64,000 bases of DNA from a virus. Under the pieces are notes generated by a model. It saw only the letters and a program-made list of their open reading frames with translations. It was not told the DNA's origin and did no database searches. The position numbers and the translations under genes were made by a program. The stretch is taken from IMG/VR virus record IMGVR_UViG_3300049596_000182, positions 1-64,000 of that record; one strand, given 5' to 3'. Below, piece after piece: positions 3,366-30,700 of this stretch. Each line of letters begins with the position of its first letter. The first letter of the stretch is position 1.

Positions 3366-3809
3366 TTAAAGTGCAGTTGTGGTTGTTGTTGTTGTTGGAC
3401 AAGGTCCTACTAATATAGCTAAACTAGATTGATTAATTTGATAATAGTACCCTGCTGTAGAAATATACAATCCAACTTGAGTGAACGGATTAGTAAGAGC
3501 TGCATCTTGATACACCATATTTCCGTTAATAACAGAAGTTGCTGTATAGAATACATTAAAACCTTGTTCACAAGCACTTAATAAATCTGAAGTTACTCTA
3601 CCAACCCACGCTGTAGGTGTAACACCACCACCACCTTGTGTGGTTGTTGTTGTTGTAGATGAAGGAATGTAATTACAACATTCGTATGCTTGAATTTCAT
3701 GCCATTTACCCACCTTAGGTTTATTTTTCCTAAGGATTAAGCTACCAGCAACGATTCTTCCGCTTCCATCGAAGCGAACAAAGGCTCTTAAGTCTCTCTT
3801 ATTACTCAT
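3366..3809 (-). CDS. Virion display protein: RAYVRYDG-type anchor plus poly-Thr linker
   Basis: 147 residues. Residues 6-45 repeat the anchor of the neighbouring gene (RAFVRFDGSGRIVAG, PKVGKWHEI, ECC). A poly-Thr tract and a GGGG stretch lead into VTPTAW and one beta-rich domain, and the protein ends in another poly-Thr tract directly before the stop. It looks like a shorter paralogue of the 229-aa protein and may have arisen by duplication and loss of the tip. Gaps to both neighbours are 12-14 bases, as in an operon. A virion surface location is inferred. Confidence 0.7.
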   Translation of the reverse strand: MSNKRDLRAFVRFDGSGRIVAGSLILRKNKPKVGKWHEIQAYECCNYIPSSTTTTTTQGGGGVTPTAWVGRVTSDLLSACEQGFNVFYTATSVINGNMVYQDAALTNPFTQVGLYISTAGYYYQINQSSLAILVGPCPTTTTTTTAL

Positions 3810-4881: not shown

Positions 4882-5427
4882 TTAAGGTACAATGTTAATA
4901 ACAGTTCCGTTTCTCCATAACGCACCACTTGGTAAACCAGCAGAACTTGTAGGTAATCCGTTGAAAATAACATTTCCACTGTTAGTTAATGTATATGGAG
5001 TAAAGGATCCACCAATAGTAACTAATAAATTTGCATCATCTACAAAAACACCACTTGTTGTTAATTTTCCTGTTCCATCTCCATTAGCCAAATAATTAGT
5101 ACCTACATTAATAATCTGTGTACCATTGTTTGATAAAATACCACTTAAATCTATGTCCCCTTGAACGTTTACTTTTTTTGTTTGACCATAGTTTGAACCA
5201 ATACGAATGTTACCTGAAACTTGTGTAATAACACTATTTGTAACATTTGTACTTGCATTGAATAAAGGAACAGTATTTGTAGTACCACCACCTGTAACAC
5301 CACCTGCTAAATCAGCAATATCTTGTGCTGTTGTTTTTACTGTAGAACTACCTTGAACTACAGGAATTTCTTCTGCACCAGTTAATGCAGAACCTGCTGT
5401 CAGTTGACTAATTTTTACGTTTGCCAT
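4882..5427 (-). CDS. Tail-fibre-like protein (KISQLT N-terminus)
   Basis: 181 residues. The N terminus (KISQLTAGSALTGAEEIPVV, then TVKTTAQDIADL) is a familiar opening of phage fibre and tip proteins: a short trimerising head with a TTAQDIA helix. Beta-repeat-like sequence with GGTTNTVPLF and NGDGTGKLTT follows, ending in a compact strand-rich tip. The overall composition (Gly, Thr, Asn, Val) matches the large fibre at 13005-19631. There is no endosialidase-type chaperone, so trimerisation must be supplied by the protein itself. A minor fibre or adaptor role is inferred. Confidence 0.6.
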   Translation of the reverse strand: MANVKISQLTAGSALTGAEEIPVVQGSSTVKTTAQDIADLAGGVTGGGTTNTVPLFNASTNVTNSVITQVSGNIRIGSNYGQTKKVNVQGDIDLSGILSNNGTQIINVGTNYLANGDGTGKLTTSGVFVDDANLLVTIGGSFTPYTLTNSGNVIFNGLPTSSAGLPSGALWRNGTVINIVP

Positions 5428-22700: not shown

Positions 22701-24713
22701 TTTAGGATCTTTACCAGCCCAGTTAGCATTGTAATTATCAATTGTAGTTTTGATTTGCTTGTTCAGCACCTTAGCCTGATACAATAGAGGTTTAACATTA
22801 CCTTTCATTTGTAACTGTCTGATTGCTGTAAAGAGAGCATTCAACTGCTCAGCTTTAGATAGCTTCTCAGAAGGTAGTGCTTTCTTTTCAGAAATCTGTT
22901 TGTATACAGCATTAAGTTTCTCAATGAGAGCATCAATCTTTTTATTACCTGTCTTCTCTCCTTCAAGACCTACAGGGATTAGATAGTCATCTTGAATAGC
23001 TTTAACACTAACATCACCTATCTTAATTGACTGAAGCTTAGGAAGGTCTCCAGTTTTAGCATTACCTTGAGAGTAGAATGCTTTAATAGGAATCATTCTT
23101 GTTTGCTTAAAGTCTTGAGGATTAATATTATATGTATTTTGAAGGATAGCTTTGTATTGCTCCATCTGTAATCTCCAAGCATTCACCTTATACCAAGGAA
23201 TGTCATCATACTTATCTACGTTAAGATCCATAAACTTCCAGTCAAGGATGTTTGTCTTACCATCAGGTTCAATAGCTAAGAAGTCAATAGTACCAGCTAA
23301 GTCACGCTTAGGATCATATACAATTGCCTCAGACATAAATCTTGTACCACCATTTTCTTTAGGGAATGAATTTAAACGTTCCTTTAGATTTACCTTTAAC
23401 ATCTCATACATAGTCCTATCATTAGGATCTAGTTTGGAAACATATCCATCATCATTAAGGGGTTCTGTTCTTAGGAAACCGTCAGCATCTACAAACACCT
23501 CAAATGCATGTTCAATATCTTTATGTCCTGCTGTACCTTTCTCAGCTTTTAAATCATCCACTGCTTTAGCAAACTCACTCTTAGTTAAGTCATTAGCTTT
23601 AAATCTTCTATCGTACCAATCACTAACTAAGTCAGTAACCCTTCTAAGAACTTTCACTCCATCTACATAGTATCCATCATCCTTCTTAACAACCTTAGCT
23701 TTAAGATCCATGATAGAATCGTATATCTGTTGTTGTTTATCCTTTTGTAGATAAACATCATTTTCAGAATCTCTAAGCTCATCAACTGTTCCAACAAACT
23801 CTCCAGATAACACTTGCATTGCAGCTTGGTCAAATCCAGACTTTTGGAATAAAGATTTAAGAGCGTTTACAATTGTTTGCCACCAGCTCTCAGCCTTGGC
23901 TATTAACTCAGGCTTTTCTGTTAAACCTTCGTTCTTATTAATAACTGTCTCTGTAAGCACCTTAGCAATAGCTTCTTTTTTAAGCTTCAATATATCAGGC
24001 TTACCATCAGCAGTTTGGTAGTTTGGATCAGATCCATATTCACGAAACACATCATTTAATATGTTATAACTGTTGATTTCTTTCAATAGTTTGTTGAATA
24101 ATTTAGGATCTAATTGCTGGATTATTTCAACAGCAAAGTGCATAGCTTCTTCTGTAAGAGCCACCTCTTCCTTACCCTCAACAACTTGTACTAATTTTTG
24201 TGTAATCAAGGCAGCACCATTAGCATCCACCTTAACACCATTCACAACAACCTTGTCCATTTGCTTAACATCAACTCCTATACGAGTTAAGAAGTCCTTA
24301 ACCATAGCAATGGTTTTAGGAGAAGCTTTAGAACTCACTGTGTCTGTAGGCTTTTGAAACAATGTTCCCTGTACAGCAATCTTTTCCCATTCTTGTTGAG
24401 CAAGTGGATTTACATCAACTTCCACCTTAGAGTTGTTACCTGCCACTGTAAGTTTAGATCTAACCAAAGACTTTCCTTCAGGAACATTAAACTCCTTGTT
24501 TATCTTATTGATAAGCTCTAACTGTTTTTTGTTCTGACCAGTTCCTGCAGGAGAGAATAAATATGTTGCTGTATTACCTTCACCATACTTCCTAAAAATG
24601 TTAGACTTGGTAATGCTTTTCCATACTGAGTGATAGATGTCTGTTAATCGATCAGCCAATATAGGATGGTCAGCTCTATAATTGTTCTCTATATACTTTA
24701 CTTTACAACTCAT
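19770..24713 (-). CDS. Large virion-associated protein with PD-(D/E)XK nuclease core (1647 aa)
   Basis: Follows the RNA polymerase gene by 14 bases. Residues ~440-495 carry a PD-(D/E)XK (RecB/Cas4-like) nuclease core: E462 in SEAIVYDP, D477 in AGTIDFLAI and D491-W-K493 in NILDWKF. Before it, LTEEAMHFAVEII (~187-199) looks like a degenerate metallopeptidase helix, and AESWWQTIVNALKSLFQ resembles helices of large phage internal proteins. Residues ~600-900 are highly charged coiled coil. The C terminus has one hydrophobic segment (IDVIFMLTLYGLFLGL). crAss-like phages are known to encode PD-(D/E)XK proteins in this part of the genome. It may be ejected with the polymerase and act on host or phage DNA (inference). 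Confidence 0.75.
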   Translation of the reverse strand: MSCKVKYIENNYRADHPILADRLTDIYHSVWKSITKSNIFRKYGEGNTATYLFSPAGTGQNKKQLELINKINKEFNVPEGKSLVRSKLTVAGNNSKVEVDVNPLAQQEWEKIAVQGTLFQKPTDTVSSKASPKTIAMVKDFLTRIGVDVKQMDKVVVNGVKVDANGAALITQKLVQVVEGKEEVALTEEAMHFAVEIIQQLDPKLFNKLLKEINSYNILNDVFREYGSDPNYQTADGKPDILKLKKEAIAKVLTETVINKNEGLTEKPELIAKAESWWQTIVNALKSLFQKSGFDQAAMQVLSGEFVGTVDELRDSENDVYLQKDKQQQIYDSIMDLKAKVVKKDDGYYVDGVKVLRRVTDLVSDWYDRRFKANDLTKSEFAKAVDDLKAEKGTAGHKDIEHAFEVFVDADGFLRTEPLNDDGYVSKLDPNDRTMYEMLKVNLKERLNSFPKENGGTRFMSEAIVYDPKRDLAGTIDFLAIEPDGKTNILDWKFMDLNVDKYDDIPWYKVNAWRLQMEQYKAILQNTYNINPQDFKQTRMIPIKAFYSQGNAKTGDLPKLQSIKIGDVSVKAIQDDYLIPVGLEGEKTGNKKIDALIEKLNAVYKQISEKKALPSEKLSKAEQLNALFTAIRQLQMKGNVKPLLYQAKVLNKQIKTTIDNYNANWAGKDPKSFSEEEMNTFQEEIETSQDALDMYTKLDSELRFLFLGDLSEEDKKLKEELRDTADDARDLQSDLNTVAEEFADTIIAGSVDVDNLLSPEKIIKGITRFFSSTTTLQLKGVEVLFKKANKAFGLSSMDTLTETKRLQNLKEEYDKLAASKGLTIKNYFDLIKKKDSNELIDEFNPEFYKELRTRINDRDYAWIRENVDAQEFKKFLDEKLEEEYKRIDDKPRVGTDEEINSAIVREKNDAKRKYDASTSESIGWLQYELVRKFPDRSKWESNEWKELHKPDNKAALDFYNYIIEKNNEYKEIGYINKAEARTFLPYVRKGLMEKIIFGGNISLGEQFFRSISIDEGDIGFGKVNPLTGKPIDTIPTYFTREIEGEVSTDLFRTMALYNEMAIKYKYLRNIEAQARSLVRVERNKKAIATSIFGKTEYKDGVLQYTPDNNENTKLVEDMVKAIVYGQKYLQSDSFDQLLGKFGKFGEKINSKLGYKIFPENLEGRQVSINKVIDQLNNTFQLKALGLNVLSATSNLFGGTAQSIINSGKYFTATEFAGTELWLATNKMNGADKKLMIGALEYFLPLTDNYNKEIAKKLSLNKLSQENIQEFLMVLMRNSDLHVQTVNFFSFLKNSIVEDGKIVNARELLRATPEYANRYRGTAEQRKALEQKFEEDVKKLVEEKGVLKLGSVVNNEFVIPGVDRKSDSVLDIRRKVQSLTKDALGSLSEDDVRLINMSIYGKSFMMFKNWIPRLVDVRAGNLKYNSASDAYEWGRMRMVFRVMSEDLLGSLTNLTNSLQANDKGVEFMRTLFEKKKADYEKETGKELKMTEAEFMDLVRKNIKSQMIDVIFMLTLYGLFLGLKANAPDDDEDETVKNQYKFLLKASDKLKDEILYFYDPTSITSLVSSGIFPSISHITNYKTLVKNFMIENYAIAVGDEKLQEKNYVIKYLLRSFPITSQAQGMLPMFFPDLAKDLGIKAQSQSGFLR

Positions 24714-24727
24714 TGTTTATCAGTTAT

Positions 24728-27700
24728 TTATTGTCCACAAGGATTAGGGTTATCAGCTCCTTCTAAATCGCCTTCAAATTCAGCAGGAGGTTTAGGCATA
24801 TTGTTTAACGCTGCAGCATTGATTCTATCTTCGTACTGACCAATTGTTTCGCCAGAAACTTTTGATATAGTCTCGTGTGCTTTCTCATGTAACAAAGCAA
24901 ACGTTAAGAACTCGTTAAATGATTTGAACTGTTCTGCAGGAAGTGCTGTAGCTTTACTACCGTCTGCCTGTGTAACAGGACTGGTCCAAGCTTTATCGTC
25001 AAACTTTTTCTGCATTAGGTCTTTAACCATTTGGATCTTCTCTCCTTTGTTTAAGTTTCTCATTGCTACAGGAACATCTTTGTTTGTAGAGATTTCATCA
25101 ACAAACTCTATAGCTGTATTCAAGAAAGACTTATCAGCTTCTAATTGCTCTAAAGTTACATACGCACTTAAACCTGGTTTAGGTTTTAATTCTTCTCTTA
25201 CTTCCATTAACAGTTTAGGAAACTCTGTTCTCCATTTAGATTTAGGAGACTCTTGTGTATGGGTAAGTTCAGCATTTCCTGTAGCTAACAAAGCTTTAAG
25301 AGCTGATGGATTTTGTTCAAAAGAAGCTTTCATTAATTCCTTCATTATTCTTGAAGAGTTTGCATCCCATGCTTTTGTATTTAATCCTTTAATTTTTCCT
25401 CCTAATTCTTTTGCATTAGCTCCTGAGTATTCTTGAAACTTAAGTAACATATCATAAAAACTAGGAGTAAGACCAAATTCAGGAGAATTATAAACTGAGC
25501 TATATAGTAGTTTAGCTGCTTGAAATGCTCCTTCAACATTTTCAAAGCCTACACCATCTGCTGTTGTAAAAGGTCTATTAGCAAAGTTACTTAACTCAGC
25601 ATTCTCTCCTGTACCTGCATAGATGTTAATCTTCTTAGAGCTATCTATAACTGGTTGAGGTTTAGTTGATTGAGTTTCATTAACTTGACCAAACCTAGCT
25701 TTAAACTGTTGTTCATTAGAAATATCTTGACCAGATATGTTTCTAAATTTCCAACCTTTAGGAGCTAGTATAGTAGTAGGTATTCCTAATTTAATTCCAG
25801 CTTTAGCTCCAGCTTCATCAAATCCTGTTTGTCCACCAGTTCTAATTGATTCTATTTTGTTCTTAAGATTAGGAGATTCTACAACACCTTTTAATATTCT
25901 ATAAGTCATTAAATCTACTTCTTCTTGATTCCATCCAGCTTCTCTCATAGTGTATATACCATTTCCTGCTATGTTTAATGTTTTAGCGTTCACTGAATTC
26001 AATTGGTCCACTATCACATTAACTTGAGATGTTATATTAGCTTTATTAATATCAGAAGTTTCTGTCTTTGTAGGAACAGCTAAAGGTATATATTTCTTAT
26101 TTTGTTCTAATACAGATGACTTAGTTAACTTCTCACCAGCAGAATTAAAGTTGTAAGCAAAAGCAATAGTTGCATCAGCACTTGCATTTTTGATAGTTCT
26201 ATTTTTATATCCTGATGTGGGTTCTTCTTGAAACTCTATAGCTGATTGAGTTTTAGTTGATTGAGTTTTAGTTGATTGAGTATAAAGTTTTACATTTTCT
26301 CCAGGGATGACTATGTTTTTACTACCATCTGTTTCTTCAAGTCTTGGAGAACGTGCTCCTACTTTACCTTCTTCTCTAATTCCTCTAAAGATAAATTTGG
26401 TACCATTTTTATCATACACTACATCCCCATCATTTAATGTACTATTATCTATAACTGGTTGAGTTTCAGTGGTTACAGGTGCAATATCATATACATATAG
26501 TCTACCCTTACCATTAACCCAATCTTTAGTCTGTTGGTACATAAGATCATTCTCAGATTTTGCACCATCATCCTTAAGCATTTTTTCTTTACCGCCAGCT
26601 TCTTCAATAGTTAAAAGACCACGATTTGTAATATTATAATATGTATCACCTATTTTTCTAACTTGTGTTTGACCTACAGGAATACCTATTTCATCAGCTT
26701 GTTTTTGAGAACGTATTGTAGCAGTTTTAGTACCAGCTTTAATCTTCTCAATATTAGCAGGTTGCATCTGAATAGTCTTATCCATAGATTGTAAAGGTAC
26801 AACTTTAGGTTGAGTTTGTCCACCATAATGTGCAATTATTTCTTCGTCTGTAATCTCATTAGCAATCTTTACAGTGCCATTGTTTAATACAGAAGGAATA
26901 TTGTTCTCATAGTATTCAGAAGCTAATTGACCGTCACCATATAGATTAATTAATTTATATACATGGCTACCCACTCCTTTATCATCATATACAATCACTG
27001 GACTACCGTCAGCATATTTAACCTTTTGATAACCGTATATGTCTTTTAAAGATAGGTCACCTTTAGATTTCTTAATTGCAAACATTGAGTTGGTTACATT
27101 TTCACCATTAGTCATATTAACTCTTGTTCCTGTAAAACTATCTTCAACCACTCTAGGAACCTTAACAAAATCATATTTCAAGCTAGCTGCATTATAACGC
27201 TCACTCAATAACAATATCTTTCTGTCTGTAGACTTGATTCCTAAGTTCTTAATATTAGGGAAAGCTGGAGAGAAGTATTGGTAAATGTCATTATCATATA
27301 TATCCACAGCAATAGGAGTCTCCTGAGCTAAGAAGAACTTAGGCTTCACCTTACCAAATATCTTGTCATCTTTCCAGTTATTCCTTTGGAATGCACCTTG
27401 AGCAAATGATTTTAATGAATCATTAGATACAAGAGGAGCTATTACTGGAGCAATGATTTTGCTATAGTCTTCAATAGGAATAATGTTCTTTATAGATATA
27501 CCTGTTTGGTATGTACCCTGGAGAATAGACAATTTAACTATGTTGTTGTACAGCTCTGTAGTAGATGGGTTATCTCTAAGCTCTCTCATATATCCTGTAT
27601 ACAAGTTCTCATCGTAAGCATCTTTGTTATTAGCTAATAGTTTAATGCTCTTAGCACCATCCACTCTATCAGAACTAACCACTTGTAGGTCGTTTAAGAT

Positions 27701-30700
27701 TGTAAGTCCTGGGTTCTTACGCTTAGCCTCAGCTAGTTGAGAAGCTACAGATGTACCTGCATCAACTAACAATGCTTTAATCTCACTGTTTAAACCACTC
27801 TTAGTTTGGATGATGTAGTCTAGGAAAGAAGCTTTTAGTTTGTTAGCAATTCTATCATAGTCATCAGCACTTAAGTATTGATCTTTTGCAAAAGACTTTA
27901 ATATTGAATTAGTTATAACTCTAAACTCATCTTTCTCAAGCTTGAATATCTCACCCATAGCTTCCATAGAAGAAGCAATAAGCTCAGCCTGCTTACCTAT
28001 AAATGAAGCATCTAACAACTCATTTACAGAACTAATAATGTTAATATCTTCAGCAACTTCTGTTCTTGTTTCCTTCTTAAACAATGCATCACCACTTCTA
28101 AACTTGGTAGTGTCATAGTTAATCGCTTGACCAAAGTTAAATAGATACTCAGCCATCTTAGCGTATTTCAAGAACTCGTTTAGTATAACATGTTGCTCAG
28201 CATTCTTAGGTTCACTAAGTTCTCCTTTAGAATAGTATTCTGAAATGTTATCTTCAAGAGTGTCAACGCTAACACCTGCAGAGTTAATCAATGTTCCAGT
28301 TGTAACAAACTTAGACTTAACAGCATCTATGTTCTTTTGGTTAAATAAACCTCTAGCTCCTGTGTTATCTAAGTATGTTAAATACTCCTTAATAATAGGC
28401 TGATTCATGAACATTGCTGTTGTCTCAATTGGAACACCAATTCTTTCTAAGTACATAAATGTACCTACAGCTAAGTCAGAACCTATAATCTTAAGGATGT
28501 ATGGATCTTTAGCTACATCCACAAACGCTGTTGCATATCCAGATAGTTTACCAGAAATATACTTACCAGCCTTATCTAGAATTGAAGATAAGGATATACG
28601 TTCTTCACCATTAATATTCACTGTATTATGTGGAAGAGCCACCTTACCATCACCTAATATCTTTCTATCAACCTCATTAACAAGCTCAAACTTACTAGGA
28701 TCAATATATGCAGAAATCTTTTGTGTAAGAGAATGGTTAGTGATGTTTACAGCAGCAATACCCACCCAACGCTTAGCAGTTACGAATGCATGTCTAAGCT
28801 TAGTTAGATAGTTTCTATCAAGCATCCTGTTCTTAATAGTGCTTTCATCATACCCTCTTAACTTATCTAATTTAGAAGCTAAGTCTTTTAAACCAGCATC
28901 TCCTATGGGAGAAATCAATCTCTCAAAGTTCTCTGGAAGTGTAAGAAGTTTTGTTAAAGAATCGTAGTATTCATTCTCTAAAGACTTCTTATACATGTCT
29001 CTAACATACTTATCTTTCAACTCAGCTTGTAGAGTGGCATCACTTAACTTATCTAGCTCTGCAGCAAGTCTTTCTTCAAGACCTTCTGTAGTGTTTACAT
29101 CACCTAACTCAGAAATCATAGCATCTAATATGCCTGAATATCTGTCTACTAGGTTCTCTGGATCACTAGCATCATTGTTCATTATGTATAGTGCATCTAA
29201 TATTTCGTTCTTCTTGATAGTTTTCTTATCAAGCATTTCATTAAATACATTAGCATAGAACTCTTTAGTAGCTTCTTCAGAACCTTTGTATTTAACTAGA
29301 CGGATGTCACCATTCTTATCTAAATAAGTAGCCTTTAAATAAGTGTTTAATTTATCTATATCAAAGTCAGATCCAGCCTTTGTAGTGATTTCAGAAGGAA
29401 CAACAATAGTATCTCCCATAGATTGTGGTAAGAAACCTTTCACTCTAAACACCTCAATATTACTTAATTCCTGTGTAGGAATACGGAAACCAACTCCCGT
29501 AAGAATAGAACGTCCTTCTGCTGTACTATTTAGATAGTTAAGTAGAGCCTTATCATCAGGGAACTTCTTACCAAACTTCACCTTAAACCAGTGTGGTAAT
29601 AACACCTCACAATAAGGTTGGTCCTTAGTATAGAACTTAAGAGTGTCATCTGTTAATCTTACCTTCTTCTTATCTTCTTCAGATAGGTTATTATATTCTA
29701 CTTTAGAGATTTCTTTAAATCCATCTTTTGTTTTAAGAGCAATCTTTCTACCAGCTTTTGCATTCTCCCATCCTGTTACAGGAACCTGTACCTTAGGACC
29801 ACCATTCATCTTAGGAGATGTAAGGGCTTTATCCACCATTGAATAAAGAATATTTCTAATCTGTACGTAGGCATTAGATGCTTCAAATGGAATTCTAAAT
29901 TGACCATTCTCATCTAACTGTACAGTATCTTTAGCATTGTCAGACATCTCTCTTCTAAGCATTTCATACTCAAGAAGTTTAGATACGTCTACATTAGTTG
30001 TAAGTTTAAACCCATCACCAAGATCTTCAATACCAAGCTTTCTTAATAGCTCGTTATATCCATTCTCGTGCATCCTATCTAATATCTCTTTGTTACGAGC
30101 ATATTCTCTAGCAGCTTCAGGACTTGTAGCTACACCATTGTTAAATAGGTTTAAGCTAGCTAGTTTAGTAGGCTGAGAACCACGAGTTTGTTGCTTAGAT
30201 CCTTCATAGCTATTCTCCACTTGAATACCGTAAGCACTCCAAGGAACTTGTATCTTGTTATCAAATCCACCATCGTTTAAGCTACCATCTCCATTATACA
30301 AACTGTACAATGTTTCAGTGCCCACCTTTCTGCCAGACTCAAATATAACATAGCCCACATCTTCCTTCATCATCTTAACATAAAGCTTCTCTAGGTTAGT
30401 TCCTTCTACAGCCTTGTAGTATAAAGGCATTTGAGAGAACTTATCTAACACTAAATCAAACTGAGTAGAACCATACTTGTTACCAGTTACAATAGGTTTC
30501 AACACCTCTGTAACATATTTTGGTTCTGGTTTAGATATAGTCTTCTCATCCTGAGCTCTTAGTGAATCATTAGTATAAGTGTAATCACCCTTGGCAGCCA
30601 TTTTATTTCTAGTGTAAGCCATTTGCCATTGGTGCCAATCTTCAGCCTCATCAGACCATTGACCATTCTTATTCTTAACCTCTCTATATGTACCATCCAT

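Follow-up and report, generated by a model that had tools for sequence, protein, structure and literature searches.

Exchangeable ASCH-fold, SLOG, NADAR and HExxH passengers in the C-terminal tail of a crassvirus virion RNA polymerase

Viewed as a whole, our sequence searches, structure models and survey of relatives suggest that the giant RNA polymerase encoded in the window (the whole 64,000-base stretch of DNA analysed here, which is bases 1-64000 of a virus record 114,224 bases long) probably ends in an exchangeable passenger segment of enzymes for nucleotides and bases, which would be packaged and injected with the polymerase and whose NADAR domain would reverse ADP-ribosylation of bases. 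The fusion itself, the identity of the domains, the intact NADAR catalytic residues and the modular swapping of passengers among relatives are observed directly. This kind of protein, the polyvalent virion polymerase, is already known, and the crassvirus version described here is widespread and modular. It is accompanied by an unexpected and well supported pattern of cysteines at the termini of the cargo proteins.

The initial annotation had placed ASCH-, SLOG- and NADAR-like patterns and an HExxH motif on the end of an RNA polymerase, and the fusion is borne out both by a single intact reading frame and by homology to a polymerase of known structure. The 5004-aa ORF is unbroken and all four motifs were found where they had been reported, inside residues 4320-4956 (Table 1). 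In phmmer searches the polymerase core (residues 3115-4314) matched the crystal structure of the phi14:2 virion RNAP (PDB ID 6vr4) with an E of 1e-18 in an alignment spanning GSDFDIDK, and in tblastn searches it matched 103 phage records, mostly crAss-like; these matches identify the 5004-aa protein, by homology, as a catalytic crassvirus virion RNA polymerase. It has in common with phi14:2 6vr4 and with crAss001 gp47, gp50 and gp49 the homologous core with GSDFDIDK, the gene block and the terminal cysteines. However, unlike the phi14:2 and crAss001 polymerases it is doubled in length, an upstream cargo protein that is separate in other crassviruses being fused into the ORF, and it bears a passenger tail of 690 aa. 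A Pfam search of its N-terminal 4000 residues returned chance matches only. In cr108_1 (L036:13044-13335) and cr131_1 (L004:12574) we observe that the polymerase reading frame is broken in or beside DFDID, apparently by an intron, and this break comes without terminal cysteines.

Table 1. Predicted features of the polymerase and the following cargo protein in the window, with one passenger of a relative (locus given with its position).
Feature	Position	Strand	Remarks
Giant ORF, 5004 aa	24728..39742	-	Crassvirus virion RNA polymerase by homology: upstream cargo part, catalytic part and C-terminal passenger tail
C3378, sole internal cysteine of the 5004-aa protein	29609..29611	-	Conserved in the core, ~80 aa ahead of DFDID, [YW]CE[IV]xLPxW
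GSDFDIDK (residues 3457-3464; DFDID 3459-3463)	29351..29374	-	RNA polymerase DxDxD catalytic motif; invariant in alignment
ASCH-fold domain (residues 4319-4424), GTKTATIRS motif	26471..26788	-	Model and Foldseek to YqfB/PH0355/ASCH
Repeated linker TETQPVID, ASCH/spacer border	26448..26492	-	Repeat family D1
Small spacer between ASCH and SLOG (residues 4432-4488)	26279..26449	-	From sequence
Repeated linker TQSTKTQSTKTQSAI, two overlapping copies, spacer/SLOG border	26235..26294	-	Repeat family D1
cpYpsA/SLOG domain (residues 4502-4690), GGQTGxD nucleotide-binding loop 4636-4642	25673..26239	-	PF12694; profile to 3imk
Repeated linker NETQSTKPQPVID, SLOG/NADAR border	25644..25688	-	Repeat family D1
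NADAR domain (residues 4703-4853), catalytic E4737, K4744, H4828	25184..25636	-	PF08719; profile to YbiA 2b3w
HExxH module (residues 4861-4980), HEKAH 4952-4956 and conserved E4971	24803..25162	-	Possible minimal zincin
C5002, cysteine near C-terminus	24737..24739	-	Near-universal in crassvirus RNAP cargo proteins with a following partner
Next cargo protein downstream, 1647 aa	19770..24713	-	Position as crAss001 gp49; weak PDDEXK match
Sole cysteine of the 1647-aa protein, residue 3	24705-24707	-	From sequence
A1S_2505 domain, passenger of L022	L022:13604-14416		NF049995, E 1.8e-33

From residue ~4314 the tail runs in the order ASCH-fold domain, spacer, cpYpsA/SLOG domain, NADAR domain, HExxH module and a short end with C5002; the spacer, the repeated linkers at the borders and the terminal cysteine had not been recorded in the initial annotation. 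The linkers at three domain borders of the tail all repeat one 45-nt unit (TQSTKTQ/QPVID), and such repeats would aid domain exchange by recombination, perhaps serving as recombination handles. The domain identities first read from motifs are supported by Pfam matches for NADAR and cpYpsA, and by a structure-model match for ASCH. We found that the NADAR domain matches PF08719 with an E of 2.6e-11 (44.5 bits, cut-off 35.1), and at the profile level YbiA (PDB ID 2b3w) with an E of 5.9e-11. The catalytic residues on which its assignment had been made to depend are intact, and each of the Glu, Lys and His is invariant (100%) across 44 nonredundant crassvirus NADAR copies. The Glu-Lys spacing of +7 is the same as that of E88/K95 in the E. 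coli C7 NADAR, where E88, K95 and D171 are mechanistically relevant (PMC11543638), and the third catalytic residue, elsewhere Glu or Asp, is a histidine in phage NADARs (PMC11125620). The domain shares the YbiA-type profile, the Glu and Lys motif and this histidine with phage NADAR proteins (gp30.3-like, DUF1768; phrog_1017), but the latter typically stand alone whereas the window NADAR is part of a virion polymerase. It is a probable enzyme for taking ADP-ribose off DNA bases.

The SLOG domain matches PF12694 with an E of 1.7e-8 (34.8 bits, cut-off 26.2), and the G, G, Q, G and D of its nucleotide-binding loop are 100% conserved among relatives. Similar to the cpYpsA SLOG family (PF12694, 3imk; the ICP1 ‘molybdenum carrier’) it possesses both the GGQTGxD loop and the R..N..SD.T block, although the order of these blocks is reversed with respect to 3imk and Pfam, profile positions 43-125 preceding 1-32, an arrangement common to its phage relatives. 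For the ASCH-like part, searches of Pfam, NCBIfam and PDB sequences were all without a match, and its identity rests on the predicted fold: an AlphaFold2 model built from 9 sequences has a pLDDT of 94, and a Foldseek comparison with the PDB, as had been proposed, returned ASCH-fold proteins as all of the top 13 matches (TM about 0.5, E 9e-3 to 0.18), the best of them E. coli YqfB (E 9e-3, prob 0.99). This part has the fold and the GxKTxTxR motif in common with ASCH domains and the N4-acetylcytidine amidohydrolase YqfB, but unlike known ASCH families it has no detectable sequence-family match. In the HExxH module the H, E, H and a downstream Glu, which would be the third metal ligand, are invariant in 7 relatives. 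Its model (pLDDT 88) gave no significant fold match in a Foldseek search of the PDB, where the minimal metallopeptidase selecase ranked first (E 0.17, prob 0.60), and we regard the module as a putative minimal zincin. That the whole architecture is a product of chimeric assembly or of misread domains has a negligible probability: the identical tail on a separate 92-kb IMG/VR contig argues against a chimera, and like architecture is present in dozens more contigs and in named phages.

A survey of other crAss-like polymerases, which the initial annotation had called for, showed that such domains recur in polymerase ORFs in varied sets or are missing altogether. Searching with the polymerase core alone we found 20 loci (31-60% identity, plus near-identical fragments) that share the end of the core and are wholly divergent in the sequence beyond it. 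Among these, L012 carries ASCH only, L028 NADAR only and L010 and L013 HExxH only, L022 carries an A1S_2505 domain (Table 1), and L018, L020 and others carry none; L007, which was found through its SLOG, has SLOG only. In IMG/VR, 49/55 NADAR loci lie inside a crassvirus polymerase ORF, 43 of them C-terminal to DFDID, as do 21/38 SLOG loci (19 C-terminal to DFDID), these counts being of loci, some on one contig, and not of independent events. Among the combinations found are SLOG+NADAR, ASCH+NADAR, A1S_2505+NADAR and A1S_2505+SLOG. The A1S_2505-family domain (NF049995) is itself a recurrent passenger, also beside NADAR or SLOG (L085, L086, L119, L055 and L070). By Pfam, other long polymerase tails hold an AlkB-like 2OG-Fe(II) oxygenase, an SF1 helicase or DUF7831 (L144, L156, L165, L171, L184, L166 and L208), and in L184 oxygenase, NADAR and helicase occur together in a single tail. 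In an unbiased sample of 80 polymerases (64 nonredundant) picked by the DFDID region only, those with a recognised NADAR, SLOG, ASCH or A1S_2505 passenger were a minority; since most polymerases of this sample are without one, the tail is not essential.

Exchange is seen most closely in isolates of Kehishuvirus (host Bacteroides intestinalis), where gp50, the catalytic polymerase, has one slot near residue 60-80 with no insert in crAss001, a SLOG in PhiCrAssBcn2 and a different domain of ~115 aa in Bcn4/Bcn9, between near-identical flanks; that near-identical isolates differ by a SLOG insert indicates that passengers are swappable. In cr126_1 a NADAR lies near a gp50-type N-terminus, in a protein that GenBank names DUF1768-containing protein. 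Mass spectrometry has detected crAss001 gp47, gp49 and gp50 in virions (PMC10172136), and the phi14:2 gp76-78 records are annotated from MS/MS. Combined with the presence of gp50 in virions, the slot swaps indicate that the passengers are modular and that those of the isolates reside in a proven virion protein family. The domains of the tail in the window are likewise exchangeable passengers of a crassvirus polymerase. Because homologous polymerases are known virion cargo, it is likely by analogy that the tail is packaged and injected with the polymerase, and its delivery in this way, as first suggested, is well supported by the crAss001 and phi14:2 homologues.

The accompanying claim that no such system had been described overstates the case: we found none on crassvirus polymerases, but N4-type virion polymerases with effector domains have been described as ‘polyvalent proteins’ (PMC5512222), and phage NADAR/SLOG fusions have been surveyed (PMC9503650). 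Our search of the literature other than the phi14:2 RNAP paper found nothing that combines crAss with NADAR, SLOG or a terminal cysteine. The N4-type polymerases with zincin, ART, lysozyme and PBECR domains (Iyer et al. 2017, PMC5512222) have a giant packaged polymerase and injected effectors in common with the window protein, and they too have an HExxH domain on the C-terminal side of the polymerase. However, the polymerases are unrelated, that of crassviruses being two-barrel and not T7-like, the passengers in the window are of types that process ADPr and nucleotides, and NADAR, SLOG and ASCH are absent from the text of that study (PMC5512222). Being large and multidomain, with effectors in variable combinations and with virion association by homology, the window polymerase fits the polyvalent type.

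The cargo proteins are moreover strikingly poor in cysteine, with 2 in the 5004 residues of the window protein (3378 and 5002) and 1 in the 1647 residues of the next. Cysteine is present in the last 6 residues of 73/74 closed polymerase ORFs of the DFDID-picked sample; it is found there in 60/61 full-length ORFs (0.21 expected), and at position 3-6 of the next large protein in 55/57 (0.36 expected). The two exceptions among the 57 are L214, whose start was wrongly chosen (MATC follows a few codons later), and L203. As controls, the first cargo protein has no N-terminal Cys in 65/66 cases and the last no C-terminal Cys in 59/59, the one exception (L196) coming after a split-off protein whose C-terminus reads ..NCL. 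In phi14:2 the sole four cysteines in 5398 residues are gp78 C1797 (the last residue), gp77 C3 and C2179 of 2180, and gp76 C3; in crAss001 we find gp47 C2339/2341, gp50 C5 and C2404/2412, and gp49 C5, and Dulem virus 41 has the same three-piece pattern. Derived extra gene splits bring an extra Cys pair, as in L022 (C4402 last, facing C3, and C534 last, facing C3) and also L189. Most of the remaining internal cysteines occupy a single conserved position in the core, ~80 aa ahead of DFDID, and the single-chain N4 virion polymerase has zero cysteines in 3500 residues. The pattern covers the window together with L010-L028, L135-L214, L022, L189, L196, L034, L037, L217 and L219. In L189 a distinct 224-aa ORF that may encode a homing endonuclease lies between two cargo genes (L189:14233-14904).

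Chance does not account for the terminal cysteines (60/61 against 0.2 expected), nor does a DNA-level cause, as both TGT and TGC are used, 0 to 5 residues from the stop, the gaps between genes vary from -32 to 567 nt, and in crAss001 the gp47 and gp50 genes are on opposite strands. N-terminal-cysteine ligation is unlikely because the cysteine is at position 3-6 rather than 1-2. The rule of n pieces with n-1 facing Cys pairs, together with cysteine depletion elsewhere, suggests a thiol coupling of successive cargo proteins. We give about even weight to a model where they are joined head-to-tail through these residues, most likely by disulfides in the virion, ejected in sequence as a single chain and parted once in the reducing cytoplasm; in this model the passenger tail would lie just inside the coupler. 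Other parts of the crAss001 particle are known to contain disulfides (PMC10172136), and we found no literature reports of them for crassvirus RNAP cargo proteins. The terminal-cysteine rule is a candidate answer to how several giant proteins can be packaged and then leave the particle one after another by way of a narrow tail.

In the explanation that we consider probable, enzyme domains for bases and nucleotides, set between the polymerase core and a short terminal one-cysteine peptide and connected by repeated linkers, would be packed in the particle with the polymerase, threaded into the cell together with the genome, and have the incoming genome and the early transcripts as their first targets. 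NADAR would most likely take ADP-ribose off bases of incoming DNA or early RNA, ASCH and SLOG would probably work on modified or signalling nucleotides, and the HExxH module may be a protease. The substrates of the tail and any anti-defence benefit are what we infer from its domains, and neutralisation of NAD/ADP-ribose defences, as initially proposed, is plausible by analogy. A different and less likely possibility is that NADAR and SLOG degrade or soak up cyclic ADP-ribose-type signals and ADPr derivatives from Thoeris/TIR and related defences. Phage SLOG domains are mostly YpsA-like, of a cADPr-sensing clade and often fused to NADAR or Macro, and the 2022 viral NAD/ADPr survey argues that soluble ADPr derivatives are the favoured substrates of phage NADAR and SLOG (PMC9503650); SLOG and NADAR also co-occur in several polymerase tails. 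However, passengers of relatives such as the AlkB-like oxygenase and SF1 helicase are nucleic-acid enzymes, and their company with NADAR in the L184 tail points to nucleic-acid repair or de-modification. Also against soluble substrates, one E. coli-phage NADAR removes ADP-ribose from guanine of DNA in vitro; in the same work NADAR hydrolytic activity by itself gave cells no protection against DarT1 (PMC11125620). We rate nucleic-acid substrates as probable and soluble ADPr as possible, two options that computation does not separate.

Two further readings are improbable. SLOG, perhaps with ASCH, might be a sensor tuning the polymerase to NAD/ADPr-type nucleotides, with the tail enzymes secondary; SLOG domains can indeed be nucleotide-binding sensors, and phage fusions of SLOG to nucleic-acid enzymes have been interpreted as sensor-regulated (PMC9503650), but passengers are found at the N- or C-terminal end of different cargo proteins and relatives lose them readily, which is a poor fit with an integral regulatory role. 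Slightly less probable still, the passengers could be near-neutral accretions in a permissive spot, with no selected function. While their patchy presence is in keeping with this, the catalytic residues are 100% conserved across the 44 nonredundant NADARs, the same small set of families recurs, and the domains are intact in virion cargo, all of which argue against this reading.

Crassviruses are among the most abundant viruses of the human gut. If swappable enzymes that reverse ADP-ribosylation or mend bases are routinely part of their virion polymerase, the phage would answer such defences before any protein synthesis, and as Kehishuvirus isolates with and without the SLOG passenger have been obtained on Bacteroides intestinalis, the idea is open to study with near-isogenic phages.
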